NCBI GenBank assembly: GCA_913009335.1
Contig: CAJVXN010000014.1
Span: 1 to 43,966, forward strand
Origin: an uncultured bacterium
Lineage (GTDB): Bacteria; Omnitrophota; Gorgyraeia; Ghiorseimicrobiales; Ghiorseimicrobiaceae
Direction of reading: 5' to 3'
DNA length: 43,966 bases
Under the pieces are notes generated by a model. That model was not told where the DNA came from. It worked only from the letters and a program-made list of their open reading frames with translations, and did no database searches. This document shows, in pieces, positions 2,103 through 33,040 of this stretch. How positions within the stretch are numbered: position 1 is the first letter of the stretch; every line of letters starts with the position of its first letter. The position numbers and the translations under genes were made by a program.

Positions 2103-2135
2103 TTGACAATGATCCAAAAAAGGTGTAAATATAAT
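2103..2135 (+). promoter_or_regulatory. Candidate sigma-70 promoter for the RiPP pair
   Basis: A perfect TTGACA (2103-2108) is followed by a perfect TATAAT (2130-2135), but the spacer is 21 bp, longer than the usual 17. The alternative -10 GTAAAT at 2125-2130 gives a 16-bp spacer. It lies about 45 bp upstream of the small Cys-rich peptide gene. Confidence 0.5.
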
Positions 2136-2180
2136 ATTAAGAAGTATCGCTATGAATTCTAAAAGGAAAGGGATGAAGCG

Positions 2181-2366
2181 ATGGATAAAAAAATAATTAA
2201 AAAAACATTAGCCGGGCTAGGTATTGCTACACTTGTTGCGAGTATGACTCTTACAACTAGCGGCTGTGGAAACGAAAAGCCAAAGGGTTCTTGCGGCGCC
2301 GGTTCATGCGGAAAAAGCACAGATGAGGGTACTTCATCCTGCGGTAAAGGTTCCTGTGGTAAATAA
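2181..2366 (+). CDS. Cys-rich RiPP precursor peptide, SbtA (selenobiotic)-like
   Basis: This 61-residue peptide begins with a Lys-rich, hydrophobic leader (MDKKIIKKTLAGLGIATLVA), as in the SbtA-type targets of radical SAM maturases. The core carries two copies of SCGxGSCGK separated by STDEGTS; each Cys sits in an S-C-G context. An SGC sequence at residues 27-29 looks somewhat like a lipobox, but Thr at -3 is a poor fit. SD AAAGGGATGAAG precedes the ATG. The stop is TAA, so no selenocysteine extension is encoded. The next gene is a radical SAM/SPASM protein of the matching maturase type. The family assignment is from recalled leader similarity, and the final modification is unknown. Confidence 0.75.
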   Translation: MDKKIIKKTLAGLGIATLVASMTLTTSGCGNEKPKGSCGAGSCGKSTDEGTSSCGKGSCGK

Positions 2367-2405
2367 TATAAACTGCGCTTAATATTATTAAGCAAGGTTT
2401 CACTT

Positions 2406-2436
2406 AAACGGCCCGTCAATGTATGGCGGGCCGTTT
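2406..2436 (+). promoter_or_regulatory. Strong hairpin between precursor and maturase genes
   Basis: AAACGGCCCGTC (2406-2417) pairs with GGCGGGCCGTTT (2425-2436) through 12 positions with one G-U pair; the loop is 7 nt. No long T-run follows (only TTTAATTTAT), so it looks like a partial terminator or RNA-processing hairpin. It would favour excess precursor over enzyme. The ATG at 2419 lies in the loop, which argues for the later ATG at 2449 as the maturase start. Confidence 0.6.
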
Positions 2437-2448
2437 AATTTATCGAAT

Positions 2449-4047
2449 ATGAGAACAAAACACCGAAAACATAACATTACAGCTATTTACCCACTGTCGC
2501 GATCAATTACCGGCCGTAACAACTGGCATCATTTCCTAAAATCAAACAATGTAAGCCTAAAGCCTCAATCTTTGCCCGGCAAACTGAATACATATCTCAA
2601 AAAACTAAGATTACCGCAATTTCTGCCGGAACTTGCGAAGCTAGAGTGGTCAATTTATAAAACTTCAACCTTAAATATTAAAACTACTTATAGTAGTGGG
2701 GGGAAATTTCAACTTAATCCTACTCTTGGGATTTCACATCTCAACTGGAAGCTTTCCCCGTTTTTGGGCAAAAAAAAAGCTAACTTCAGGCCAAAAAAAG
2801 GACAAGAATGGATTCTAATATGGAAAGATCCTTGGTCAAAAAAAATAAATATTAAACCGGCATCAGCTAGCCAACTGCTTGCAATTAAGCTAGTAACGGA
2901 TAAGATATCACCGCAAGATGTTGCAAAATCCACAAATTCCGATATCCAGCAAATTGAAGCTGCTTTATCGGCGACACAACGAGCCGGCCTGCTTATTGGG
3001 CCGCGGCCGCGTATCAGGCGCAATCCGTTAATCTTTAATCAGCAGCAGAAAATCTCCGATAAATATATCTTTGCCGATACATTTACCCTGCAATGGCATA
3101 TAACCGGAGCTTGCGATCTACACTGCAAACACTGTTATGACCGCAGCCGACGTTCTCCCCTAACGCTTAAGCAGGGAATCGGAGTATTGGAGAATTTGAA
3201 AAACTTTTGCCGCAAATATAATGTGCATGGACACATATGCTTTACGGGAGGAAACCCCTTTCTTTACCCGCATTTTTTAAAACTTTACGCGGAAGCGAAA
3301 GAACGGGGATTTTCTACATCCATATTAGGCAATCCTACTAACGAGACACACCTTAAAAAAATTATTGATATACAAATGCCGGGATATTTTCAGGTAAGCC
3401 TGGAGGGGCTGGAAAAACACAATAATATCATCCGCGGGCAAAAACATTTTCAAAAAGTCATTAAATTCTTAAAAGTTTTACGAAAGTTACATATATCATC
3501 AGCAGTTATGCTTACTTTGACTGAAGATAACATCGACCAAGTTATTCCGTTGAGCGAAAAATTAAAAAACCGTGCAGATTATTTTACGTTTAACCGTCTT
3601 TCGCAAGTAGGAGAGGGAGCAAAACTTAACCTCCCGGATACTAAAAAATATGCCGCGTTCTTGAAAAAATATGTAACCAGGTCAAAGCAAAACACGATAA
3701 TGGGCTTTAAGGATAATTTGATAAACATAGTGCTGAATAAGAAAAAGATGCCGTGTTTTGACGGATGTACCGGCTACGGATGCGGAGCCGCGTTTAATTT
3801 TCTTACTGTTCTGCCTGACGGAGAGACGCATGCCTGCCGTAAGTTTCCTTCTCCAGTCGGCAATGTTTTAAAGCAAAATATTTCCGAAATATATGAATCA
3901 CGCCTTGCCAGGCGCCATCGAAAAGGCAGCAGCGGTTGTAATAAATGCGTAATCCGCCATATTTGCGGGGGGTGCCTTGCAATCAGTTATAGTCACGGCC
4001 AAAATATATTTAAAGATATCGACCCGTACTGTTTTATTGAACCGTAA
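2449..4047 (+). CDS. Radical SAM/SPASM peptide maturase, SbtM-like
   Basis: The N-terminal about 200 residues carry the YPLSR...NWHHFL and LPQFLPELAKLEWS features I associate with selenobiotic-family (SbtM) maturases. The radical SAM core has CxxxCxxC (CDLHCKHC, Cys222, 226 and 229 counted from the ATG at 2449) that binds the SAM-cleaving 4Fe-4S cluster, followed by TGGNP. The C-terminal SPASM region has about nine cysteines (CFDGCTGYGC, HAC, CNKCVIRHICGGC, DPYC) for auxiliary clusters. It would modify the Cys-rich peptide encoded just upstream. An in-frame ATG at 2419 is possible but sits in a hairpin loop; neither start has a clear SD. The gene ends 4 bp from a convergent gene. Confidence 0.8.
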   Translation: MRTKHRKHNITAIYPLSRSITGRNNWHHFLKSNNVSLKPQSLPGKLNTYLKKLRLPQFLPELAKLEWSIYKTSTLNIKTTYSSGGKFQLNPTLGISHLNWKLSPFLGKKKANFRPKKGQEWILIWKDPWSKKINIKPASASQLLAIKLVTDKISPQDVAKSTNSDIQQIEAALSATQRAGLLIGPRPRIRRNPLIFNQQQKISDKYIFADTFTLQWHITGACDLHCKHCYDRSRRSPLTLKQGIGVLENLKNFCRKYNVHGHICFTGGNPFLYPHFLKLYAEAKERGFSTSILGNPTNETHLKKIIDIQMPGYFQVSLEGLEKHNNIIRGQKHFQKVIKFLKVLRKLHISSAVMLTLTEDNIDQVIPLSEKLKNRADYFTFNRLSQVGEGAKLNLPDTKKYAAFLKKYVTRSKQNTIMGFKDNLINIVLNKKKMPCFDGCTGYGCGAAFNFLTVLPDGETHACRKFPSPVGNVLKQNISEIYESRLARRHRKGSSGCNKCVIRHICGGCLAISYSHGQNIFKDIDPYCFIEP

Positions 4048-9024: not shown

Positions 9025-9495
9025 ATGAAGACAAAATTACAAAAAAAAGAAGCGAGAGACTTAGGGGATTTTGCCGAAAAACTAACCCGCGTTTTACCAT
9101 TTTTTATAAGAGAGTTTTCCCGGAGGCAATCTAATGAGCTATATAAAGGTAAGATTACCGTGCAACAATTCGTCGCGCTTAGTTTCTTAAATTATATAAG
9201 TACGGACAAAGGGGCTACAATGAGTGAAATCGCAAAATCATTACATGTTACTATGCCTGCCGCAACAGGGATTATCGACCGACTCGTTAGAGACGGCTAC
9301 TGCTCAAGATCTAGCGACTTAAGTGACCGTCGCATAATCCGGGTAAAAATAACCTCAAAGGGTGATAAAACAGCTCAAAAAATATATAAGCACCGCAAGG
9401 AAATGATTATCAATATATTCGGCAAATTGACAAAACATGATCGAGATGAATATTTAAGGATTTTTACCAAGGTAGGTGAAATTTTAAAAGTTTAA
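9025..9495 (+). CDS. MarR-family transcriptional regulator
   Basis: 156 residues with a winged helix-turn-helix: the recognition region is MSEIAKSLHVTMPAATGIID, and the wing contains SDLSDRRIIRVKITSKG, the conserved DxRxxxxxLT-type motif. N- and C-terminal helices would form the dimer interface. It lies directly upstream of a TolC-like channel and an RND pump, so it is probably the ligand-responsive repressor of that export operon. The palindrome at 8989-9000 is its candidate operator. Confidence 0.92.
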   Translation: MKTKLQKKEARDLGDFAEKLTRVLPFFIREFSRRQSNELYKGKITVQQFVALSFLNYISTDKGATMSEIAKSLHVTMPAATGIIDRLVRDGYCSRSSDLSDRRIIRVKITSKGDKTAQKIYKHRKEMIINIFGKLTKHDRDEYLRIFTKVGEILKV

Positions 9496-9543
9496 AAATA
9501 AACATGTAGCTTTTAGTAGTAAGCTGCATCTAAACAAGCAAAG

Positions 9544-11013
9544 ATGAAAAAGATATTAATATTTATAGTTATTATTTTTACCCTGTTTATGCATTTTTGC
9601 GTACCTGCGTTCTCAGCAGAAAAAAAGGAGATGTCTTTATCTTTAAAAGACATATCGCACATTGCCCTTGAAAATAACTTTGATATCCAAATTGCCAAAT
9701 TTGATGCATACATAAAGGAAAATGACGCACTTTTAGCCGAATCCATATTCGATACCATCATCTCCGGTAAAATTACTTATACGGATAACCAAAGCAAGCA
9801 GGCCTCAACAATATTTGGAACAAAATCTCTAACAAACGAATATGAGCTATCAGCAGAGAAAAAAATGCCTACCGGAACAACCATAAATACGAGCTTAACT
9901 CAAGAAAGAAACTGGACCAATTCTGCATTTGCCACAACAAATCCATCGCATGAGGCAACGGCAAGCATAGGATTAACCCAGGAACTGGGCAAAAATTTCT
10001 TTGGCTTAATCGATAGGGGTAATATTAAAATAACAAAACTGGATATTAAAAATTCTACCTATACATCACTCGACAAGATAGAACAATCTCTTGCCGATAC
10101 CCAAAAAGCTTACTGGAAACTAATACTTAGAAATAAAGAATTACTCATTGGGAAAGAAATGCTGCAAAAAGCGGAAGAACTACTTAAGATACATACTGAT
10201 AAAGAAAAAATCGGCCTATTAGAACAACCTCAAATTTTAGCATCCGGGGCTAATTTAAAACAGCGCGAAAGTGAAGTAATATTATCTCAAAACGCCCTGG
10301 ATTTAACGCACAACGATATCTTGTATAGATTAGATTTAGATCCCGAGAATATTACAATCCTCCCAAGTGATGAATCCCTCGAGGGTATTTCAAACCCCGA
10401 CTATATTGAATCATTGAAACTTGCTATTCAATCCCGGCGTGACTACGCAAAGCAAAAAAATGAACTAGATGCAAGCAAAATACAACTCTCCATAAAAAAG
10501 AACAGCCTTTGGCCCGAGATAAACCTAGAAATAACATTATCTAGAAACGGCCTGGATAGTGAATACAGAGAGGCATTTGGGAATATTGTAAACGAAGACA
10601 ATCCCCGATATTATACCGGCATAAACTTTAAATTCCCCCTGGAGAACCGAAACGCAAGAGGTGAATTTAATAAGGCAAAGCTTGAAAAAATAAAACAAGT
10701 ACTAAAATTAAAAAACATTGAGCGCAAAATTGTAGTAGCTACAAAAGACAATATAGCTATACTCGTAGCATTAATTGCCGTTGGAGAAAATAGCCGCCAA
10801 GTGGCAAAACTACAGGAGGAAAAATTAATAGCTGAAGAAAGAAGATTTCGCTCAGGACGTTCAGATACGGATACAATAATAAGATATCAGGAAGACTTAT
10901 TGCAGGCGCGAATAAATCTTGCTCGCGCCGAATACAATATACAAGTTGCAAAAATAGATCTAATGCTTGCTGAAAATTCATTGCTTAATAAATACTGGAG
11001 AGAGCAAATATAA
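9544..11013 (+). CDS. TolC-family outer membrane efflux channel
   Basis: 489 residues with a Sec signal peptide (MKKILIFIVIIFTLFMHFCV...AFSA, cleavage near residue 24). Two long helical repeats follow the outer membrane efflux pattern: the first contains LSLKDISHIALENNFDIQIAK, while the second half has SLKLAIQSRRDYAKQKNELD and ends in YNIQVAKIDLMLAENSLL. Beta-strand segments such as GLTQELGKNFF fit the membrane barrel. It forms the outer-membrane exit duct for the RND pump encoded 13 bp downstream. An outer membrane component confirms a diderm host. Confidence 0.9.
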   Translation: MKKILIFIVIIFTLFMHFCVPAFSAEKKEMSLSLKDISHIALENNFDIQIAKFDAYIKENDALLAESIFDTIISGKITYTDNQSKQASTIFGTKSLTNEYELSAEKKMPTGTTINTSLTQERNWTNSAFATTNPSHEATASIGLTQELGKNFFGLIDRGNIKITKLDIKNSTYTSLDKIEQSLADTQKAYWKLILRNKELLIGKEMLQKAEELLKIHTDKEKIGLLEQPQILASGANLKQRESEVILSQNALDLTHNDILYRLDLDPENITILPSDESLEGISNPDYIESLKLAIQSRRDYAKQKNELDASKIQLSIKKNSLWPEINLEITLSRNGLDSEYREAFGNIVNEDNPRYYTGINFKFPLENRNARGEFNKAKLEKIKQVLKLKNIERKIVVATKDNIAILVALIAVGENSRQVAKLQEEKLIAEERRFRSGRSDTDTIIRYQEDLLQARINLARAEYNIQVAKIDLMLAENSLLNKYWREQI

Positions 11014-11026
11014 ATAAGAGATAATT

Positions 11027-14000
11027 ATGAAAAGTATAACGGAATTCTCTGTAAAACATTCAATGTTTGTAAATCTTCTTTCGGTATTCCTTGTAGTTGC
11101 CGGATGTGTATCTCTTTTTCAGCTAAAGCGTGAGGCCTTTCCGAGTGTTTCTTATGAAGTAGTAACAGTTACTACTATGTATAGAGGCGCTACCCCTGAA
11201 GAGGTCGAGCGCTTAGTCACTACGCCCCTTGAGAAAGAACTTAAAGAAGTCGATGATATTGATGAGATTGATTCATCATCTAGTGAGGGCTTATCTACAA
11301 TAATGCTGACTATGAGCCCGGATATCAAAAATAAGCGCAAGGTTGTTGCTGATATTCAAACTGCTGTTGACCGCGTAATTGACTTGCCCAAAGACGCAGA
11401 AGAACCCCTTGTAACAGAGATACTTTCAAAAAACATTCCCGTTATAATTACATCATTAAGCGGTAAACTCCCCGAGCCCGAACTACAGAAATTCGCCCAG
11501 ACCCTGGAAGACGAATTTATGGATATTAACGGCGTTGCCCAAGTAAACAGGAGAGGTTTTCGTGACCGGGAAATGTGGGTTGAGGTAGATTTAGATAAAA
11601 TGCGCAATTTGCATGTATCATTTGCCGAAATACGTTTGGCTCTGGCGAATAGGAATATCGGACTGCCTGCCGGAAAAATTGAGACAGGAACTGACGTACT
11701 AAGTGTTAAAACAAAAGGGGAATTCTACACAAAAGAAGAAATCGAAAATGTGATAATCCGCGCAAATGATGCCGGAATTCTTCTTAGGATTAAAGACGTA
11801 GCTGTCGTACTGGATACATTCGAAGAAGAAAACATTATTAATAAAACGCGGGGAACTCGCTCCATCTCATTAATAGTTATCAAAAAAGATAAAGGTGATA
11901 CAATTAATATCGTTAATGATGTCAAAAAGGCTATTGAGGAATTTAAATTTGCTTCTCCTGAAGGGCTAAATATTGACACGTTCTATGATATGTCTTTCTA
12001 TATTAAGCGCCGGCTTAACGTTGTCCGCTCAAATGGCCTGATTGGCTCATTATTTGTTATTGGCGCTTTATTTATCTTCCTGCATCATATTCCCGCAATT
12101 CTCACAGCTCTAGGTATCCCTATAGCGCTGCTTACTACTTTTTGGGTGATGAATTTGTTAGGTATAAGCATAAACCTTATTACGATGTTTGGTTTGGTTC
12201 TAGTCCTGGGCATGCTTGTTGATGATGGAATAATAATTGCTGAAAATATCTATCGCTATATAGAGCAGGGAGTAGAACCCAGAGAAGCAGCAATAAAGGG
12301 AGCAAACGAAGTAATGCTTCCTGTGCTCTCTACGGTACTTACTACTATCGCCGCATTTTCACCATTAATGCTCATGAGCGGACTTATTGGCAAGTTTATG
12401 CGCGGCGTACCTATTGTTGTTTGCATTGCTCTTACAGCTTCGGTAATCGAGGCATTTATTATTCTTCCTTCGCATATGGCGAATTTTGTAAAACCGATAA
12501 AAAATCACCACCAGACGAAAAAAGGACAGTGGCTTAATCGACTCACCGATAGATACGCTGGTCTATTAGGTAAAGCGCTAAAACACAAATATAAAGTCTG
12601 CATTGTTACCTTTCTGCTATTTATAGCATCAGTTGTCACTGCCGTTAAATTCATGCCGTTTGTACTGTTCGGCGGAAGAGGAATAGAACAATTCATGATA
12701 AGGGCAGAGGCAAAGATAGGAACACCTCTTTCTAAAACAGAAGAACTTATCAAGCCTGTAGAAAAACTCATAGAAAGCATGCCAAAAGATTATATCGATA
12801 CCTATGCTACGCAGATAGGATTATTGCAAGAAGAAGGCGGGCATGATCCGGATGTAAACTATGGGAACCATTTGGTTCAAATAACTGCCTACCTTACACC
12901 GGATCAAAAACGTAAGAAAGGCGCTAAAGAGATCATCGAGGAATATAGGCCCGCGCTTTCTAAAATTGAGGGTTTCCAGCGTCTGTATTTTCAGGAAATA
13001 AGCGAAGGACCGCCCGTAGGTAAACCTATTTACGTAAGAGTACGCGGCGATGACTACAATGTGATAAATAAAATCACCGCTAAGATAAAAGAATACCTCA
13101 GCACTAAAAAAGGCGTATCGGATATTGTTGACAGTTATAAATTAGGAAATAAAGAACTACATGTTATCGTTGACGAAGAGCGTGCCGCGCTCGCTGATTT
13201 AAGTGTAAGCGATGTAGCCTTAGCTGTTCGCTCTGCCTTCGAAGGCAGCATTGCTACATCAATTAAGCCAATAAGAGCCGAAGAGGAAATTAACGTACGC
13301 ATCCGTCTCCAAGAGAACCAAAGAAACAAACGTAAAATTTTAAATGAGCTTCTCATCGCTAACAGACGCGGAAATCTTATCCCTCTCAATAAGGTCGCAA
13401 AAATCGTAGAAGCGCAAGGAATAAAAACGGTGCGCCATTTAGACGGAAGAAGATTTGTATATGTTAGCGGTGAAGTCGATAATAAAAATATTACATCTCG
13501 TAAAATGAAAGCGCTCCTAACAAAAAAATTTAAAAATATCAGCAGCGAATATCCGGGTTATAGCATTAAATATGGCGGAGAAATGGAAGAAACACAAAAA
13601 TCGATGACCAGTCTTGCAACTGCTTTTCTCCTGGCATTTTTATTGATTTTTTTAATTCTGGCTACACAATTTAATTCTTTAGTTCAACCGTTTGTTGTAA
13701 TGCTCGGTATTCCTTTTGCTCTAATTGGCGTGGTAGCGGCTCTTATTCTACACGGCGAGCCATTTGGTTTCTTCGTTATTATGGGACTTGTAGGCTTAAC
13801 AGGAGTCGTTGTTAATGATTCAATAGTTCTTATGGATTTTATCAATAAATTAAGACTAAAAGGGATGCCCAGATACGAATCAATCATGCAGGCAGGGCGT
13901 TTAAGACTTAGGCCCGTAATCCTTACCACTATTACCACAGTTGCGGGTATTAGTACCGTTGCTTACGGAATAGGAGGGAAAGATCCATTCTTGCAACCCA

Positions 14001-14152
14001 TGGCCCTAACCATTACCTGGGGGCTCGTATTTGCCACTATCCTTACACTTATTGTAATACCCTGTATCTATGCTATAATTGACGATATCGCATTAAAACT
14101 TAAGCCACGCAAAGATTTCTGCAGTGCCAATGCCGACAACTCAAACACGTAA
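11027..14152 (+). CDS. RND-family efflux pump, AcrB/HAE type
   Basis: 1041 residues, the normal length for AcrB-type transporters. There is one N-terminal transmembrane helix, a periplasmic porter/docking loop containing YRGATPEEVERLVT, then a helix bundle with GMLVDDGIIIAEN, in which Asp399 and Asp400 are the proton-relay pair. A second periplasmic loop and second helix bundle (GVVVNDSIVLMDF) follow. It exports drugs, lipids or other hydrophobic compounds using the proton gradient. No HlyD/MFP adaptor gene lies in the operon, which is unusual for a tripartite pump; the adaptor must be elsewhere or absent. Confidence 0.93.
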   Translation: MKSITEFSVKHSMFVNLLSVFLVVAGCVSLFQLKREAFPSVSYEVVTVTTMYRGATPEEVERLVTTPLEKELKEVDDIDEIDSSSSEGLSTIMLTMSPDIKNKRKVVADIQTAVDRVIDLPKDAEEPLVTEILSKNIPVIITSLSGKLPEPELQKFAQTLEDEFMDINGVAQVNRRGFRDREMWVEVDLDKMRNLHVSFAEIRLALANRNIGLPAGKIETGTDVLSVKTKGEFYTKEEIENVIIRANDAGILLRIKDVAVVLDTFEEENIINKTRGTRSISLIVIKKDKGDTINIVNDVKKAIEEFKFASPEGLNIDTFYDMSFYIKRRLNVVRSNGLIGSLFVIGALFIFLHHIPAILTALGIPIALLTTFWVMNLLGISINLITMFGLVLVLGMLVDDGIIIAENIYRYIEQGVEPREAAIKGANEVMLPVLSTVLTTIAAFSPLMLMSGLIGKFMRGVPIVVCIALTASVIEAFIILPSHMANFVKPIKNHHQTKKGQWLNRLTDRYAGLLGKALKHKYKVCIVTFLLFIASVVTAVKFMPFVLFGGRGIEQFMIRAEAKIGTPLSKTEELIKPVEKLIESMPKDYIDTYATQIGLLQEEGGHDPDVNYGNHLVQITAYLTPDQKRKKGAKEIIEEYRPALSKIEGFQRLYFQEISEGPPVGKPIYVRVRGDDYNVINKITAKIKEYLSTKKGVSDIVDSYKLGNKELHVIVDEERAALADLSVSDVALAVRSAFEGSIATSIKPIRAEEEINVRIRLQENQRNKRKILNELLIANRRGNLIPLNKVAKIVEAQGIKTVRHLDGRRFVYVSGEVDNKNITSRKMKALLTKKFKNISSEYPGYSIKYGGEMEETQKSMTSLATAFLLAFLLIFLILATQFNSLVQPFVVMLGIPFALIGVVAALILHGEPFGFFVIMGLVGLTGVVVNDSIVLMDFINKLRLKGMPRYESIMQAGRLRLRPVILTTITTVAGISTVAYGIGGKDPFLQPMALTITWGLVFATILTLIVIPCIYAIIDDIALKLKPRKDFCSANADNSNT

Positions 14153-21740: not shown

Positions 21741-22244
21741 ATGCTTCACAAAAATAAAATACTTATTAACCAAAAAAAATGTATTTTTGCCTTCGGCCGC
21801 TTCATCAGCGAGGTTAACCCCGCCAGCCGCAACAAATTGCGGCGTGGCGGTCCTTTGGACAGATTTTGTTATTTTAAAATCTGGGTTAAATTAATAGCCT
21901 TCATTGAATTGTCTATCGGATTAAGCACGCTTGCGACGTTAATAGTTTATTCATCGCTATCAATATCAGACAAATCGTTAAATGTGTTTATATTTGTTTG
22001 CACAACAAGCACGATATCTCTCTTAATCGGACTGGGGCTTCTTGCGGAAAACGATATGGCCCGAAAAATATTAGTATTATTCTCAGGATATATTGTACTG
22101 ACAAAAATTTTAATTTTTGTAGAACTTATGCAATTTAACGGTGAAATACTTACGTTTATCCCCACAGGGCTTAAAAACCTAGTATCTGTTTTTTATCATT
22201 TTCTTCTAGTGGTACTGCTCTATCGAATAAAATTACAAAAATAA
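21741..22244 (+). CDS. Predicted four-helix membrane protein, unrecognised
   Basis: Up to 167 residues with four hydrophobic segments from about residue 48 (VKLIAFIELSIGLSTLATLI, FIFVCTTSTISLLIGLGLL, ILVLFSGYIVLTKILIFVEL, LVSVFYHFLLVVLLY). The first 40 residues are Arg/Lys-rich and are encoded by a stretch containing a GC-rich hairpin (21820-21850), so the native start may be later, for example TTG at 21855. The 3' end overlaps the convergent radical SAM gene by 25 bp. The function is unknown. Confidence 0.55.
   Translation: MLHKNKILINQKKCIFAFGRFISEVNPASRNKLRRGGPLDRFCYFKIWVKLIAFIELSIGLSTLATLIVYSSLSISDKSLNVFIFVCTTSTISLLIGLGLLAENDMARKILVLFSGYIVLTKILIFVELMQFNGEILTFIPTGLKNLVSVFYHFLLVVLLYRIKLQK
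21820..21850. repeat. GC-rich palindrome inside a reading frame
   Basis: CCGCCAGCCGCAA (21820-21832) pairs with TTGCGGCGTGGCGG (21837-21850) around a CAAA loop with one bulge. It is much richer in GC than the surrounding AT-rich gene and may be a REP-like insertion. Confidence 0.55.
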
Positions 22245-23602
22245 TCTTTTTTATTTAAAAGAAGGGGGGACAGACTTAGTTTCTGCCATATGGATTTTTC
22301 TTCCATGCAGAGATAGATAGGGGCCCTTAAGTTATGCTGCCTAAACATTGCTATCAAATTAGCATACATATCAACGCGTAATTTATCAGGATATCTTAGT
22401 TTTTTATCATAGCCGTAAAGTAACTCTTCGTTAAGAATTTTATTTTCCGGAAAGCGTTCTTCAATAACGTCTTTAAGCTTAGGCGTAAACCTAAACGTTC
22501 CGATACTTATCCAGGCTATCGATTTAGTTTTCAAATTCAAAAATAATAAATCAATCAGCTCCTTGTAATCCTTGCGCCATCCTTTATAAAAAAATACCGG
22601 ATCAAAATGAAACCCTATTTTATATCCCGCATCAGCGCACTTTCGCGCGGAATCAAGCCGTTGAATAAGCCCCGCGGTAAAAAATTCATTGCCTTTTATT
22701 ATCCGCTGTGGATTGAGGGACCATGATACGACAATATTTGGAGAATATTTAATAGAAAGTAAATTTTTAATATTAGCACTCTTGGTTTTAAATTCAAACA
22801 CTACCTTGGGATGCTTACGGAAAAAATCTATTATTGCTTTGGAATATTGTGTTATATCGTCTAGCATTAACGAATCGGAAAACTCACCCGTTCCGATACG
22901 CATACCGTCTTTTTTATAGGCGATGAAATTATCAAAAAACCTATCCAAATTCGCAGAAAGGATTATGCCCGGAGTATTCGTATATTCCTGCAAATAACAG
23001 TAGGTGCAATCAAATATGCAGCCAAAACCCAAATTAAATATATGATAATCACATCTTATAGCGCCTTTCGTACATGGACATTTCTTAAATAAATCATAAC
23101 GTTCTTTCGTAATAAATACTGTTTTTCGCCTCTGATTATAATCTGATATTTTGGGCCGCCGATAATACATCATACGATACTCTTTTAATGATTTAATATA
23201 AGAGATTTTAGAGAGGGGGAATTTGTTTCTAAAGCGTTTAAGGAGAAAAGAACCCCTTAAAGAATCCTCAACGATTATTTTTGCAGGATAAAATTTGGTT
23301 TTTCTGATATTGGCTTTGTTTTTTACATGGAACCTTACTTTGGGGAGATAGGAGTTAATCGCCTCTTTGTAATAAATACTAAGCGGAAATCTACGGCGAA
23401 GCAGGCAATTTTTTAAATTATGAAAATTATCGTGGGTAATACTGCTTAGAATATCCCCGGGTGATATATTTTCCCGCTTTGAAATCTCGAAAACAAGGCG
23501 AATAATTTCTTGTTTTTTGTTGGGGCCAAAAAGAGGGAAGCGCGAGCTTAAGATAGCGGATGTTTTTTTTAAAATTAGTCTAGGGTTTCGATAAGCTTGC
23601 AT
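22220..23602 (-). CDS. Spore photoproduct lyase-like radical SAM enzyme
   Basis: 460 residues. The radical SAM cluster motif is GCIFDCTYCYLQEY (CxxxCxxC), preceded by CPCTKGAIRC and NLGFGC. TGEFSDSL, VVFEFKTKSANI, VVSWSLNP and GFHFDPVF follow the order seen in SplB-type proteins, which reverse thymine dimers by radical chemistry. A non-sporulating host is indicated by the outer-membrane genes, so this is more likely a relative with another DNA or nucleotide substrate. It overlaps the preceding nucleoside phosphorylase by 28 bp and is the last gene of a minus-strand operon. Confidence 0.82.
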   Translation of the reverse strand: MQAYRNPRLILKKTSAILSSRFPLFGPNKKQEIIRLVFEISKRENISPGDILSSITHDNFHNLKNCLLRRRFPLSIYYKEAINSYLPKVRFHVKNKANIRKTKFYPAKIIVEDSLRGSFLLKRFRNKFPLSKISYIKSLKEYRMMYYRRPKISDYNQRRKTVFITKERYDLFKKCPCTKGAIRCDYHIFNLGFGCIFDCTYCYLQEYTNTPGIILSANLDRFFDNFIAYKKDGMRIGTGEFSDSLMLDDITQYSKAIIDFFRKHPKVVFEFKTKSANIKNLLSIKYSPNIVVSWSLNPQRIIKGNEFFTAGLIQRLDSARKCADAGYKIGFHFDPVFFYKGWRKDYKELIDLLFLNLKTKSIAWISIGTFRFTPKLKDVIEERFPENKILNEELLYGYDKKLRYPDKLRVDMYANLIAMFRQHNLRAPIYLCMEEKSIWQKLSLSPLLLNKKDYFCNFIR

Positions 23603-27670: not shown

Positions 27671-30600
27671 ATGTCAGAGAAAAAAAGCGCAGGGGAAAAA
27701 TGTCTTTTGAACAGGCTAAGGGTATGCCTGCTTTTTGTGTTTTTGTTTGTTGCCGCGGAGGGGATATTTGTAAATAAGGCAGAGGCAGCGGACATTAGTG
27801 ATGCTCAGACCGGCAACTGGAATGCTACCGCTACATGGACAGGCGGCGTTGTTCCCGTAGCCGGCGATAATGTTACTATTGACACAGGCACTGTAACCTT
27901 AACGGCTGATGCCGCATGCGCTGATATTACAATTGGCAGCGGAGGCACGCTTGACGCTTCATCTTATACCATAACTGTCTCAGGTAACTGGGATTCGTCC
28001 GGCGGGACGTTTACTTACGGTACGAGCACGGTGGTAATGACCGGGTCAACAAAGACTATGACCGCGGGGAGCAGTAGTTATGATTTCTACAATTTAACCA
28101 TAAATTCAGGCGCAAGTATTACCGATAATTACGGTCTTGACATCAAGGCGGGAGGCCTATTAACCGTCTCAGGAACGTTTACCGTAGCCAGCGGAAAGTG
28201 GCTTCTTATTCGAAACACTGCTAATATGACTATAAATTCCGGAGGAACGCTGACTATTACGGGAGGGATAATTTCTTATACCGCTGAAGGTAACACCGGT
28301 ACTTTTACGAATGACGGCACTATTGACGGTGGTGGTACGTGGGAATGGGGCATAAAGGGTGTTCAGACTACCGGACCTGTAGCCGCCATAGATTATGGAA
28401 ATCTAAGGATATTTTTCTCTACATACGCCCCTGCAGCAAATTCTACGGCAGTTTTATCAGCAGGTACCTTGACCACAACCGGCGCATTGGATATTTATGA
28501 TGATAGAGGCAATGGCGCAAGTATTACAATTAATAACTCTACTAATAATGCTACGGTTAATGCCGGCAGTTTAACTATCGGAAATACTACCTCTCGGGAT
28601 AGCAGAGGAACATTAATCGCCGGTTCAGCCACTTATACCATTACCGGAAATGTCGTCACTGCAGCGGATGGTTGGGATGTTTCCAGCGATCTGCAGGCTA
28701 ACACAGCTACTTTTAATGTCGGTGGCAATTGGACTAATAATGGTATCTTTACCGCCGATACATCTACCGTTACCTTTGACGGCACAGCGGATCAGACCGT
28801 AACCTCAGGCGGCTCATCCTTTTATAACCTCACCTTAAATAATACCGGGGCATCCGGTTCCGACGATATCCTCTTAGCCGATGCCCTGGATGTAAATAAT
28901 AATCTTTTAATCACCGACGGAGATTTAGATACAACGGCCTCAAACTACGCCGTAGACGTCGACGGAAATCTCACCATAGGCGCTAGCGGCAGCCTGACCG
29001 CCAACGGCTCTACCATAACTGTCTCAGGTAACTGGGATTCATCCGCGGGGACGTTCACTGAAGGAACCTCAAACGTCATCTTAACCGGGACAGGTAACGT
29101 GAATATTAGCGCAAGTGATTATTTTTATGACGTCACTATGGCGCAAACGGGACAAACCACGACCTTGCTTTCCAGCATCTTAACGAACAACACGTTAACT
29201 CTTGGCAGCGGCGGTACACTCACTGGGAGCGGCAAACTTCTGCAGTTCTTTAAGAACGGCGGTACCCCGCTTGTCAATAACGGCGCTGCCGTCTCAGTGG
29301 GGCTGATATCATACGAGCCGACAAGCGGTACGGTAACTGTTGCCGGCGGTACTTACACAGTAAGAAGTGGATGGGGATTTAATCTATACGCAAAAGGTTC
29401 GGATGTAACGTTCAACATTGCGTCCGACCTGACGATTAATACTAATACTTACATGTCTATCTCCGCTGATGACGGGCTGACTAATACTACCGTTAATTTC
29501 CAGAACGGCAGCACGTTTACCATAGATCAGATGATCATAGGTGGTAGCACAACGTCAGGCCCTGTAACGATAAACTTTGGTAGTTCTATAATAGATTTAA
29601 ATGGTACCCTTGTTGTGTTTAAAGTTAACTTAAACGGGGGCAGCCATCAATTGAACCTTCAGACCTCTACTGTTGCATCCGCGGGTAGCTGGCTGATGAC
29701 TAATGTCACACTAGACCCCGGCACTTCTACTTTTACCTTTGATGGCACGGCAACGGGTAATAACATAACCTTAAACGGGGGCAGCTTCTATGACCTTATC
29801 ATCAATGGTTCTGGCGGCGGCTGGACCATGCAGGATGCGCTTACCGTAGATAATGATCTTACTGTTACTGCCGGCACCCTTGATATTGCCGCCAAGGATA
29901 TTACTGTAACCGCAGACCTGCTGGTCAACGGAGGAACCTTAGATACAAGTGACTCCTCCTGCGACTTAGATGTTAACGGAAATCTAACTGTATCCAGCGG
30001 CACTCTCTCTGCACCTGCTGTAGCGGATGATACCTCGTTTACTGTAGCCGGCAACTGGAAGGTATTCGGCACAGGCACATTTACCGCCAATTCTGGAAGG
30101 GTATTATTTGATGCCGGAGTAACCGGAAAGATAATCACCGCATCATCTTCTAATGCTGATGATTTCTATGACGTAAAGTTTAACAATGCCTCAGGCGGCT
30201 GGACCATGCAGGATGCGCTTACCGTAGATAATGATCTTACCCTTACAGCTGGAACATTCAGTACCTCAGCGTCAGATTACGCCTTGGTCGTAACCGGCGA
30301 CGTGGATATTGACGGGACCTTTATCGCCAACGGCTCAACCGTAACTGTTGCAGGCAACTGGGATTCGTCCGCGGGGACATTTACTTTCGGAACAAGTACC
30401 CTGGTTATGACCGGTACTAATAAAAATCTTACCTATAAAGGCGGCTGGGGCTCGCCCCGACTGTATAATCTTACTATAGGCACCGGCGCAAGTATTACCG
30501 GTCTAAAGAACGGAGGCGGCGGCCCTGTTTTAATTGCCAATAATATAGTTCTGGAGGCTAATGCCACTTTTACGCCTTCTGGTAGTTACTGGTTATGGAT

Positions 30601-33040
30601 GACAAGTGATGGGGGGAATAGTGCCGGCGGAGACTTGACTTTAGACACAGGAGCTACATTGACTATTAATAATACTGACTTTATTCGTTTTATTGATGAT
30701 TCCAGCAACCATATTTCTACTGCCGGCACAATTAACGGTACAGGTTATTTTCAGTATTCTGTGATCAGCGGAAGCACTGCCGCGCCAATAACCGCGCGCG
30801 TCTATGATTGTGACATGGGTATGAATGCCCCGGATGCCTCAGACATCGGAGTTTTAGGCGGCGGAACCAGCCTTAATTTAGGCACTAAGACATTGTATGT
30901 TTACGATAGAAATCTGAATATCGGTTTTTACGGCATACTGGATAACTCTGTAAATAATATTGCTATTACTGCCGGCTCTTTAATCGTAGGGCATCCTTCT
31001 TATGCGCATATAAATGGTAAATTAATCTGCGGCTCCGGAACTATTGACATTGACGGTGATGTTGTTATCGCAAATACCACTACTGCCAGTGAAATAGACG
31101 CGGATACATCAAGCTGGACCGTCTCCGGCGACTGGACCAATGGCGATACATTTACCGCGGATTCATCAACCGTCGACTTTGATGCTTCAAGCGGCACACA
31201 GACACTTAATTCCGGAGGTACCGGCGCGAATCAAGACTTTAACAATTTCGCTCATTCCGGAGCAGGGACGCTTGATATCGTAACTAATGACGTTGACATA
31301 AATGGTACATTTACTAATTCCGGCACCTTAATCACCGAGACAACCGGTAACCTTATTATTGCAGCCGCATCTTGTCTTCTTACCAATTCATCCGGTTCAG
31401 AAGTTAGCGAATATATAATCGGAACAGATAGTATCTACGTCAGAGTAGTAGATGAAGATGAGAATTTAGACGGAACTTCCGCTGATACTTTAACCGGTGT
31501 AACTGTTACCGGAGGAACCAACGGAGATTCAGAGACCCTTAGCCTTACCGAAACAGGCAATGCTACGGAGATATTCCTAAGCTCGGCCCTTACCACTGCC
31601 GGTTATGACGGCTCAGCCTCTGCCAATGATGGAACCTTAGAGTTATCCGCGGGCGAGACAATCACCGTTGCCTACATTGATAGCGAAGATAACACAGACA
31701 ACAATGCCTCTGACACAGCCACCTGCCGCTTGGCAATAGCTAATTTCCTTGTCTCAGCCTCAAGCCCTCAGGTTGCCGGAACTGCCTTTGATGTAACTAT
31801 TACCGCCAGAGAAGCAGATGGGACAACGGATATAGATTTTAACCGCACAGCAAATATCACCTTAACCTATGTGACTCCCTCATCGGGAACAAAGACACTT
31901 TCAACTGCTTCAACCTCCAGCTTTACCAATGGAGTGGCTACAGTATCTGAGACCTATACGGATGCCGGGATTGTCTCTATTACAGCCACAGACTCAAGCG
32001 ACTCCACCATATACGGAACAACCAGCAATATCACTTTTGTTCCGGATAGCTTTAGCGTATCGGCCAGCAAGTCAACCATTGTTGTCAACGAACCTTTTAC
32101 TCTCACTCTTACCGCTAAGAATACCGCGGGTAATACCACTGCCAACTATCAGGACAAGGCTACTCTTTCCATAAACTACGTAACTCCTTCAGCGGACCAA
32201 AACGGTACTCTCTCAACCACTGCTTTAACTTCCAGCGATTGGTCCAGCGGCATAGCTGCCCTATCCAGCTTTACCTATAATAAATTCGGCATAATCACTA
32301 TTACCTGCACCGATCCTACGGATACTACACAGACCGGGACAAGCTCAAACATTACATTTTTCCCCCTGGAATTAAAAGTTGAACCTGTTTCTCCTTCAGG
32401 CGGCAGAGACTTTTATTACCAGGATGAAGAGATAACCGCAACTGTAACAGCAAAAGACTACAACGGTAGTACCGTAGGTAATTATACCGGAGATGTTAAC
32501 TTTTCCGGAGAGAACCTAAACCTTCCCGCGGCATATTCTTTTACTCCTTTTGATTCGGGAATACATATATTCTCCGGCCTATCCGGAACAGCCGCCGGCA
32601 CAACCTCAATCACAGCTACTGATGCTGCTTATTCCGCGGCTACAGGCACATCTTCACAATTTACCGTAAAAGAAGGCACAATTATTGTCCGTGATACATC
32701 CGGGCCCGTAGGCCCACTTACTATTACGGTGGATTTGATTGACTCAGATGGATACGATATCACCACTGATAGCGGCACAACATTTACTGTAATTTTAACA
32801 GAATCAAGAGATGATGATACTACCTCTTGCGCAGCCACTAAAAGCGCGGTAACCTTTGAAAACGGCACAGCAGAAATTGAGGTAACCGATACTCAGGCAG
32901 AGGTGGTAACCGTAACTCCTGTATCAGAAGACTATCTAAATATTATTTCAGGTAAAGTCACCTTTGGCGGGGCGGGAGTGCCCAGCTTTGGCTCGGGGTT
33001 TAGGATAAAGTGGTGGAGAGAATTGCGCAACGAAGAGTAA
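27671..33040 (+). CDS. Giant secreted beta-repeat and Ig-like surface protein
   Basis: 1789 residues. There is a signal peptide (positive N-terminus, LRVCLLFVFLFVAAEGIF, cleavage after AEA near residue 40). Up to about residue 1240 there are some ten Gly/Thr/Ser-rich modules of the pattern LTVSGNWDSSAGTFT...STVVMTG...YNLTI, forming beta-helix or beta-sandwich units as in G8-like or adhesin proteins. From about 1350, Ig-like invasin-type domains follow (VAGTAFDVTITAREADG; VNEPFTLTLTAKNTAG). The C-terminus ends GSGFRIKWWRELRNEE. It is cell-surface or secreted and may mediate adhesion or predation. Two 47-bp segments (29816, 30194) are identical, indicating recent duplication or conversion. Confidence 0.85.
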   Translation: MSEKKSAGEKCLLNRLRVCLLFVFLFVAAEGIFVNKAEAADISDAQTGNWNATATWTGGVVPVAGDNVTIDTGTVTLTADAACADITIGSGGTLDASSYTITVSGNWDSSGGTFTYGTSTVVMTGSTKTMTAGSSSYDFYNLTINSGASITDNYGLDIKAGGLLTVSGTFTVASGKWLLIRNTANMTINSGGTLTITGGIISYTAEGNTGTFTNDGTIDGGGTWEWGIKGVQTTGPVAAIDYGNLRIFFSTYAPAANSTAVLSAGTLTTTGALDIYDDRGNGASITINNSTNNATVNAGSLTIGNTTSRDSRGTLIAGSATYTITGNVVTAADGWDVSSDLQANTATFNVGGNWTNNGIFTADTSTVTFDGTADQTVTSGGSSFYNLTLNNTGASGSDDILLADALDVNNNLLITDGDLDTTASNYAVDVDGNLTIGASGSLTANGSTITVSGNWDSSAGTFTEGTSNVILTGTGNVNISASDYFYDVTMAQTGQTTTLLSSILTNNTLTLGSGGTLTGSGKLLQFFKNGGTPLVNNGAAVSVGLISYEPTSGTVTVAGGTYTVRSGWGFNLYAKGSDVTFNIASDLTINTNTYMSISADDGLTNTTVNFQNGSTFTIDQMIIGGSTTSGPVTINFGSSIIDLNGTLVVFKVNLNGGSHQLNLQTSTVASAGSWLMTNVTLDPGTSTFTFDGTATGNNITLNGGSFYDLIINGSGGGWTMQDALTVDNDLTVTAGTLDIAAKDITVTADLLVNGGTLDTSDSSCDLDVNGNLTVSSGTLSAPAVADDTSFTVAGNWKVFGTGTFTANSGRVLFDAGVTGKIITASSSNADDFYDVKFNNASGGWTMQDALTVDNDLTLTAGTFSTSASDYALVVTGDVDIDGTFIANGSTVTVAGNWDSSAGTFTFGTSTLVMTGTNKNLTYKGGWGSPRLYNLTIGTGASITGLKNGGGGPVLIANNIVLEANATFTPSGSYWLWMTSDGGNSAGGDLTLDTGATLTINNTDFIRFIDDSSNHISTAGTINGTGYFQYSVISGSTAAPITARVYDCDMGMNAPDASDIGVLGGGTSLNLGTKTLYVYDRNLNIGFYGILDNSVNNIAITAGSLIVGHPSYAHINGKLICGSGTIDIDGDVVIANTTTASEIDADTSSWTVSGDWTNGDTFTADSSTVDFDASSGTQTLNSGGTGANQDFNNFAHSGAGTLDIVTNDVDINGTFTNSGTLITETTGNLIIAAASCLLTNSSGSEVSEYIIGTDSIYVRVVDEDENLDGTSADTLTGVTVTGGTNGDSETLSLTETGNATEIFLSSALTTAGYDGSASANDGTLELSAGETITVAYIDSEDNTDNNASDTATCRLAIANFLVSASSPQVAGTAFDVTITAREADGTTDIDFNRTANITLTYVTPSSGTKTLSTASTSSFTNGVATVSETYTDAGIVSITATDSSDSTIYGTTSNITFVPDSFSVSASKSTIVVNEPFTLTLTAKNTAGNTTANYQDKATLSINYVTPSADQNGTLSTTALTSSDWSSGIAALSSFTYNKFGIITITCTDPTDTTQTGTSSNITFFPLELKVEPVSPSGGRDFYYQDEEITATVTAKDYNGSTVGNYTGDVNFSGENLNLPAAYSFTPFDSGIHIFSGLSGTAAGTTSITATDAAYSAATGTSSQFTVKEGTIIVRDTSGPVGPLTITVDLIDSDGYDITTDSGTTFTVILTESRDDDTTSCAATKSAVTFENGTAEIEVTDTQAEVVTVTPVSEDYLNIISGKVTFGGAGVPSFGSGFRIKWWRELRNEE
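29816..29862 (+). repeat. Identical 47-bp internal repeat, copy 1
   Basis: Encodes GWTMQDALTVDNDLT within one beta-repeat module; identical base for base to 30194-30240. Confidence 0.85.
30194..30240 (+). repeat. Identical 47-bp internal repeat, copy 2
   Basis: Identical to 29816-29862, 378 bp downstream, one module apart. Confidence 0.85.

Follow-up and report, generated by a model that had tools for sequence, protein, structure and literature searches.

The window considered here, a stretch of 43,966 nucleotides from an uncultured bacterium, carries near its beginning a gene for a short, cysteine-rich peptide and, directly downstream, a gene for a radical SAM/SPASM enzyme. The original prediction took the two for an SbtA/SbtM-like pair of precursor and maturase and noted that, with neither a transporter nor a protease adjacent, export and processing were open questions. 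The locus asks what such a pair would make, where the product would go and what it would do there.

By its title, as cited in PMC13188914 and PMC12668002, Lewis et al. 2021 (Biochemistry 60:3347) assigns the making of thio(seleno)oxazoles to radical SAM enzymes, and the modified substrate of SbtM has been grouped with 5-thiooxazole compounds by its absorbance at ~305 nm (PMC12668002). All characterised MNIO-PME1 clusters install 5-thiooxazole and their products generally bind Cu (PMC12668002), while the bufferins are periplasmic copper sequesterers with Sec signals (PMC12452194). In the literature searched these two RiPP systems, the radical-SAM-made selenobiotics and the MNIO-made copper captophorins, stand apart; the present analysis links them.

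Identification of the precursor and maturase genes

The HMM search proposed with the original prediction places both proteins in their own families above the curated NCBIfam cut-offs (Table 1), SbtA with E=6.4e-10 and SbtM with E=1.9e-203 (676.9 bits, full-length along profile positions 1-516). The precursor carries the 27-residue leader of TIGR04081, with sbtM directly downstream. The host genome holds a single match to TIGR04081, which is the window SbtA, and a single SbtM above cut-off. The window thus certainly contains a genuine SbtA/SbtM system, belonging to an all-cysteine branch of the family. The pair had been placed from position 2,103 onwards, of which the first ~78 bp prove to be upstream DNA; the sbtA frame, read directly, runs from an ATG at 2181 to a stop at 2366. 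The 61-residue product is MDKKIIKKTLAGLGIATLVASMTLTTSGC followed by GNEKPKGSCGAGSCGKSTDEGTSSCGKGSCGK.

Table 1. Coordinates and supporting evidence for the features of the sbtA-sbtM locus
Feature	Position	Strand	Evidence
sbtA, predicted precursor lipopeptide, 61 aa	2181..2366	+	TIGR04081, 38.6 bits, cut-off 30.5
Predicted Sec/lipoprotein signal peptide (leader), residues 1-28	2181..2264	+	PROSITE-type lipobox match
Cys29, predicted lipidation site	2265..2267	+	Lipobox position 29, register as in most relatives
Core, two SCGxGSCGK units; candidate modified Cys38, Cys43, Cys54, Cys59	2268..2363	+	Direct reading
15-bp intergenic hairpin, sbtA-sbtM	2404..2438	+	MFE -34.2 kcal/mol, z -6 to -8
sbtM, radical SAM/SPASM maturase, 532 aa	2449..4047	+	TIGR04082, 677 bits, cut-off 350
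PME1-like module: DUF2063-like helical part (~1-75) and RRE-like winged-helix part (~90-180)	2449..3003	+	
Radical SAM CxxxCxxC motif, C222, C226, C229 (2449 numbering)	3112..3135	+	Invariant in 69 homologues; PF04055
SPASM domain, eight invariant Cys, two auxiliary Fe-S clusters	3751..4044	+	PF13186, TIGR04085, invariant columns

The four S-C-G triplets described earlier are present, at C38, C43, C54 and C59, and the core has no in-frame UGA, so that the selenocysteine by which selenobiotics were originally defined is absent from it. Repeats of the type SCG(K/A)GSCG also recur in the other Omnitrophota precursors. The HvfA model (NF050137), built on KCGExKCG repeats, gives the window SbtA 7.3 bits against a cut-off of 19.5. 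In the enzyme, the CxxxCxxC motif that had been noted is confirmed, and the SPASM cysteines, counted earlier as about nine, number eight that are invariant across 69 homologues (C440, C445, C463, C497, C500, C506, C509 and C528). In its gene order and leader, as in its radical SAM and SPASM cysteines, the pair agrees with the known SbtA/SbtM thio(seleno)oxazole system. The radical SAM enzyme of the ACGX system (TIGR04340) shares a related radical SAM/SPASM core (152 bits), but this score lies far below the cut-off of 400 and the match takes in residues 220-539 only, without the N-terminal module to which we now turn.

The N-terminal module of SbtM

The ~205 residues ahead of the radical SAM core match no Pfam model; the invariant residue E66 is among them. 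They follow a pattern, FLPELAKLEW, then a W-containing strand region, then a helical end, that led us to suspect DUF2063, and because Pfam and HMMER do not detect that domain here, profile-profile and structure comparisons were used. Against a PME1 profile built from 29 DUF2063 proteins from the phylum of an Acidobacteria MAG, hhalign aligns the SbtM N-terminus over 187-206 columns with 98-99% probability (E 9.4e-15 to 1.5e-18). The two halves of the module match PME1 singly (97% and 94%), the match persists when the rows of the cysteine branch are removed, and the controls (reversed, shuffled, 12 unrelated families and the catalytic part of SbtM) all stay at or below 1.4%.

AlphaFold2 models the whole of SbtM with a mean pLDDT of 92. 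In the PDB this full-length model finds for the most part further radical SAM enzymes, and for that reason the module was also modelled by itself (mean pLDDT 91); its first Foldseek match is 3DEE (NGO1945; E 3.3e-6, probability 1.00, TM 0.63, 201 columns), followed by TglI of the TglHI complex. The former is the PME1 protein of the captophorin cluster of N. gonorrhoeae (PMC12668002), and DUF2063 proteins carry an RRE (PMC12710340). The N-terminus of SbtM is thus remotely homologous to DUF2063/PME1, which acts as partner to the MNIO enzymes behind the copper-binding 5-thiooxazole peptides, and in its make-up SbtM resembles a radical SAM/SPASM enzyme to which a PME1-type partner has been joined. 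This link is the most useful outcome of the analysis; we found no earlier statement of it in the literature searched, which covered Lewis et al. 2021 by title and citation.

The comparison with the bufferin, oxazolin and captophorin systems (MNIO + PME1) shows both likeness and difference. Common to both are a cysteine-rich repeat precursor with a Sec signal and a PME1-type module of DUF2063 and RRE; in those systems, however, the module is a separate protein and the enzyme an MNIO, whereas in SbtM it is fused to a radical SAM enzyme. No DUF2063 protein encoded as a separate gene was found in 16 SbtM genomes, and no MNIO (PF05114) in 24 (G000 and 23 others), so that SbtM stands alone.

The module also bears on the bond that is formed. 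Related radical SAM/SPASM families such as PapB make thioethers, and the PapB model does match SbtM, at 73 bits, from which it might be argued that the SbtM of the window branch makes, say, a cysteine thioether of the ranthipeptide or sactipeptide kind rather than a thiooxazole. Against this stand the 677 bits of the SbtM equivalog, the catalytic and SPASM cysteines that are invariant over both branches of SbtM, and a PME1-like module that SbtM has in common with the thiooxazole makers, and we regard a thioether product as very improbable. Judged from the family enzyme, a thiooxazole on the core cysteines of the window SbtA is the likely modification, the 5-thiooxazole product being known for the bufferins, oxazolin and captophorins and inferred for the window pair.

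The leader and probable export of SbtA

The leader of the window SbtA consists of a K-rich n-region, a hydrophobic h-region and the residues TTSG ahead of Cys29, and the leaders of the family likewise join a short basic part to a hydrophobic stretch, mostly with a lipobox cysteine at or near residue 29. By rule-based calls rather than SignalP, a strict lipobox is present in 39 of 71 SbtA precursors (66 loci) versus 18 of 975 control ORFs, and a looser rule of the Ala-x-Ala type adds 24 more of the 71. The fifth cysteine of the window peptide, C29, is accordingly best read as a putative lipidated lipobox residue rather than as part of the core. By the same rules the precursor has the hydrophobic signal expected of a captophorin or bufferin, but with a lipobox where those precursors have a plain signal. 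The host genome encodes LspA, above cut-off in a profile search, and an Lgt homologue that scores 82.6 bits, under the curated cut-off of 118.9.

Judged from these signals, Sec export and lipid anchoring of the window SbtA are likely. An exporter gene would be missing from the vicinity because the leader is itself a Sec signal with a lipobox, and the question of export without an adjacent transporter or protease is thus answered in principle, on rule-based calls, by the leader, lspA and the Lgt homologue. Five loci (L054, L074, L080, L085 and L097) combine a single SbtM with two nearby SbtA precursors, of which one has a lipobox and the other a plain signal, and the product of the family may in such cases occupy two compartments.

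Distribution and the all-cysteine branch

The host belongs to the Omnitrophota and its nearest named relatives are MAGs of that phylum, among them CG11 Omnitrophica PCWA01 (G001). SbtM was found above cut-off in 8 of the 384 Omnitrophota genomes sampled. A maturase kept by close relatives that lack the peptide would have told against the pair; SbtA is present in seven of these eight, adjoining SbtM in six, lying on another contig in G247 and missing from G121. The last genome, 75% complete, has a truncated SbtM (L039/L047) without the PME1-like module, and no SbtA was found in it; its sister G105 encodes SbtA together with an SbtM of full length. We rejected G121 as a counter-example to the pair and take it as a case of decay or incompleteness.

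Scanning 84,980 species genomes brought up 355 SbtM relatives, of which the best 80 were kept. These 80 come mostly from Thermodesulfobacteriota and Nitrospirota, and 66 of their loci have an SbtA-like precursor near SbtM; a viral collection yielded no SbtM relative. The claim that the product would be previously undescribed is too strong for a family that NCBIfam already names as thio(seleno)oxazole and of which the genome collection encodes 355 relatives. The new elements are the PME1-like module, the branch with cysteine only and, for some relatives, a neighbourhood with copper genes.

Most precursors of the family use selenocysteine, with in-frame UGA in motifs such as SUSG and GUGG, whereas those of the window and the other Omnitrophota have cysteine only, in repeats of the SCGKGSCGK type (four SCG in the window). 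On a tree of SbtM, with labels set by eye since an automatic UGA count mislabels precursors that end in TGA, 12 of the 14 cysteine-only rows group in a single set that also takes in one row without a label (SH-aLRT 99), and the cysteine/selenocysteine label changes 3 times versus a mean of 12.8 in shuffles. The window SbtM belongs to this deep all-cysteine branch. SelB above cut-off is absent from all eight SbtM-bearing Omnitrophota genomes, the host included, and the 11 other SbtM genomes of the same test all have it; in a second set it was found in 4/4 selenocysteine-type genomes and in 0/7 further cysteine-only genomes, two of which (G558 and G560) have partial SelB matches near contig ends. 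The cysteines of the window core are thus most likely due to a lineage without selenocysteine insertion, and the copy does not look degenerate.

The patchy occurrence of the system in the phylum, and the cataloguing of the SbtA family as a natural-product precursor, would suit a secreted bioactive compound, the 'selenobiotic', whose leader is removed and whose modified core is released onto other cells. This seems to us distinctly unlikely: no gene for immunity, a dedicated exporter or a peptidase is widely common to the 80 loci (best 80 of 355), the lipobox of most precursors would anchor the peptide rather than release it, and the SbtA cores are repetitive and resemble metal ligands. The recognition module that SbtM has in common with the unrelated machinery for copper-binding peptides in other bacteria suggests that the pair handles metal at the cell surface and is not there to make an antibiotic.

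Gene neighbourhoods

In the Omnitrophota MAG Aceula meridiana (L051) the genes run OEP-CusB-CusA-SbtA-SbtM-DoxX, where CusA scores 1026 bits (cut-off 701) and DoxX comes closest to the HvfX Cu-RiPP family (61.8 bits, cut-off 80); in this one relative, DoxX and copper genes thus lie nearby as they do in the bufferin, oxazolin and captophorin systems. A CusB/CusA-like pair also adjoins an all-cysteine SbtA-SbtM in a Desulfobacterales MAG (L049), where CusA, truncated as the contig stops, reaches 452 bits and so falls short of the cut-off of 701. At a third locus (L157, in G247) SbtA comes after genes for Cu/Zn SOD and a superoxide reductase. Cus genes flank 2 of the 80 loci (best 80 of 355) versus a roughly estimated ~0.4-0.5 expected, a weak signal, and copper neighbours at three loci among ~85 suggest, and do not prove, a copper role. 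Two RND pumps that clustered as CusA (L066 and L067) were left out of the copper loci because of their low identity (23-24%) and the AcrAB/TetR setting of L066. Beside the window pair itself there is no copper gene; it adjoins a GDSL/TonB_C ORF that runs to the edge of the contig and a glycosyltransferase gene in convergent orientation.

Such neighbourhoods can also be read as those of a lipoprotein that binds no metal and whose thiooxazoles or thiols would serve in redox or sulfur/selenium stress. The superoxide reductase and SOD at L157, MsrA and oxidoreductases near some other loci and the selenocysteine of most of the family, which copper buffering alone leaves unexplained, all fit this reading; Cus efflux genes directly adjoin two all-cysteine pairs, however, and the published 5-thiooxazole peptides bind copper (PMC12668002). 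We consider the stress function unlikely, though less so than a secreted antibiotic.

Proposed function

Starting from what was observed here, namely family membership, domain make-up, the signal/lipobox pattern, the all-cysteine core and the lineage, we propose that SbtM would hold the leader of SbtA in the cytosol through its N-terminal PME1-like (DUF2063 + RRE) module and, as the family enzyme suggests, would use 5'-deoxyadenosyl-radical chemistry to cyclise the core SCG cysteines oxidatively to 5-thiooxazoles. The modified peptide would exit via Sec and have its signal cut by signal peptidase II, presumably in this order, and would remain lipid-anchored in the envelope, where its thiol-bearing heterocycles could bind Cu(I) or another soft metal. 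SbtA and SbtM would then act like the MNIO-made bufferins and captophorins, a radical SAM enzyme performing the oxidation instead; this like function by a different enzyme is proposed because the module, the kind of precursor and the reported heterocycle are the same. The literature searched gives no measurement of metal binding by any SbtA product, and buffering of copper or a soft metal, argued by analogy, is plausible, with the case evenly balanced. Thiooxazole formation, Sec export, lipid anchoring and envelope binding of Cu(I) or a soft metal, taken together, form the best explanation, and one that we hold to be moderately probable.

If it is right, the SbtA family gains a function that can be tested, the handling of metals at the envelope, the absence of a nearby exporter is accounted for, and one recognition module serves two unrelated oxidation chemistries, which is of use in RiPP genome mining and engineering. 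We would go further only with equal weight on either side: SbtM may have arisen by fusion of a PME1-type module to a radical SAM enzyme, SbtA may be the radical-SAM counterpart of the captophorins, and the all-cysteine branch may act as a copper buffer with a lipid anchor in lineages that do not insert selenocysteine. MNIO and radical SAM enzymes, members of unrelated superfamilies, would in that case use one recognition module to place the same thiooxazole on exported cysteine-rich peptides.

The intergenic hairpin and other features of the window

A pattern scan finds one copy of the sbtA-sbtM hairpin within the window, and strong hairpins occupy the equivalent place in L048, L050, L051, L072 and L035/G243, while a promoter scan of the sbtA-sbtM region gave results at chance level. 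The hairpin is a probable attenuator or partial terminator; as a partial terminator it would yield much precursor and little enzyme, which is its simple reading. The longest sbtM ORF opens at an ATG at 2419, and because this codon sits in the hairpin loop, and the alignment also fits the later ATG, the start is likely at 2449.

Elsewhere in the window, the ORF at 1-1995, cut by the contig start, has an odd architecture of tail-fibre-like repeats, a GDSL lipase and a C-terminal TonB_C. Positions 9025-14152 encode a MarR-like regulator, a TolC-like protein and an RND pump unlike CusA (23% identity), and 27671-33040 a surface protein of 1789 aa with no strong family match, its G8 domain falling just below cut-off. 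On the minus strand, at 22220-23602, lies a gene for a spore photoproduct lyase-like protein (PF20903, 110 bits), which is unexpected in Omnitrophota.
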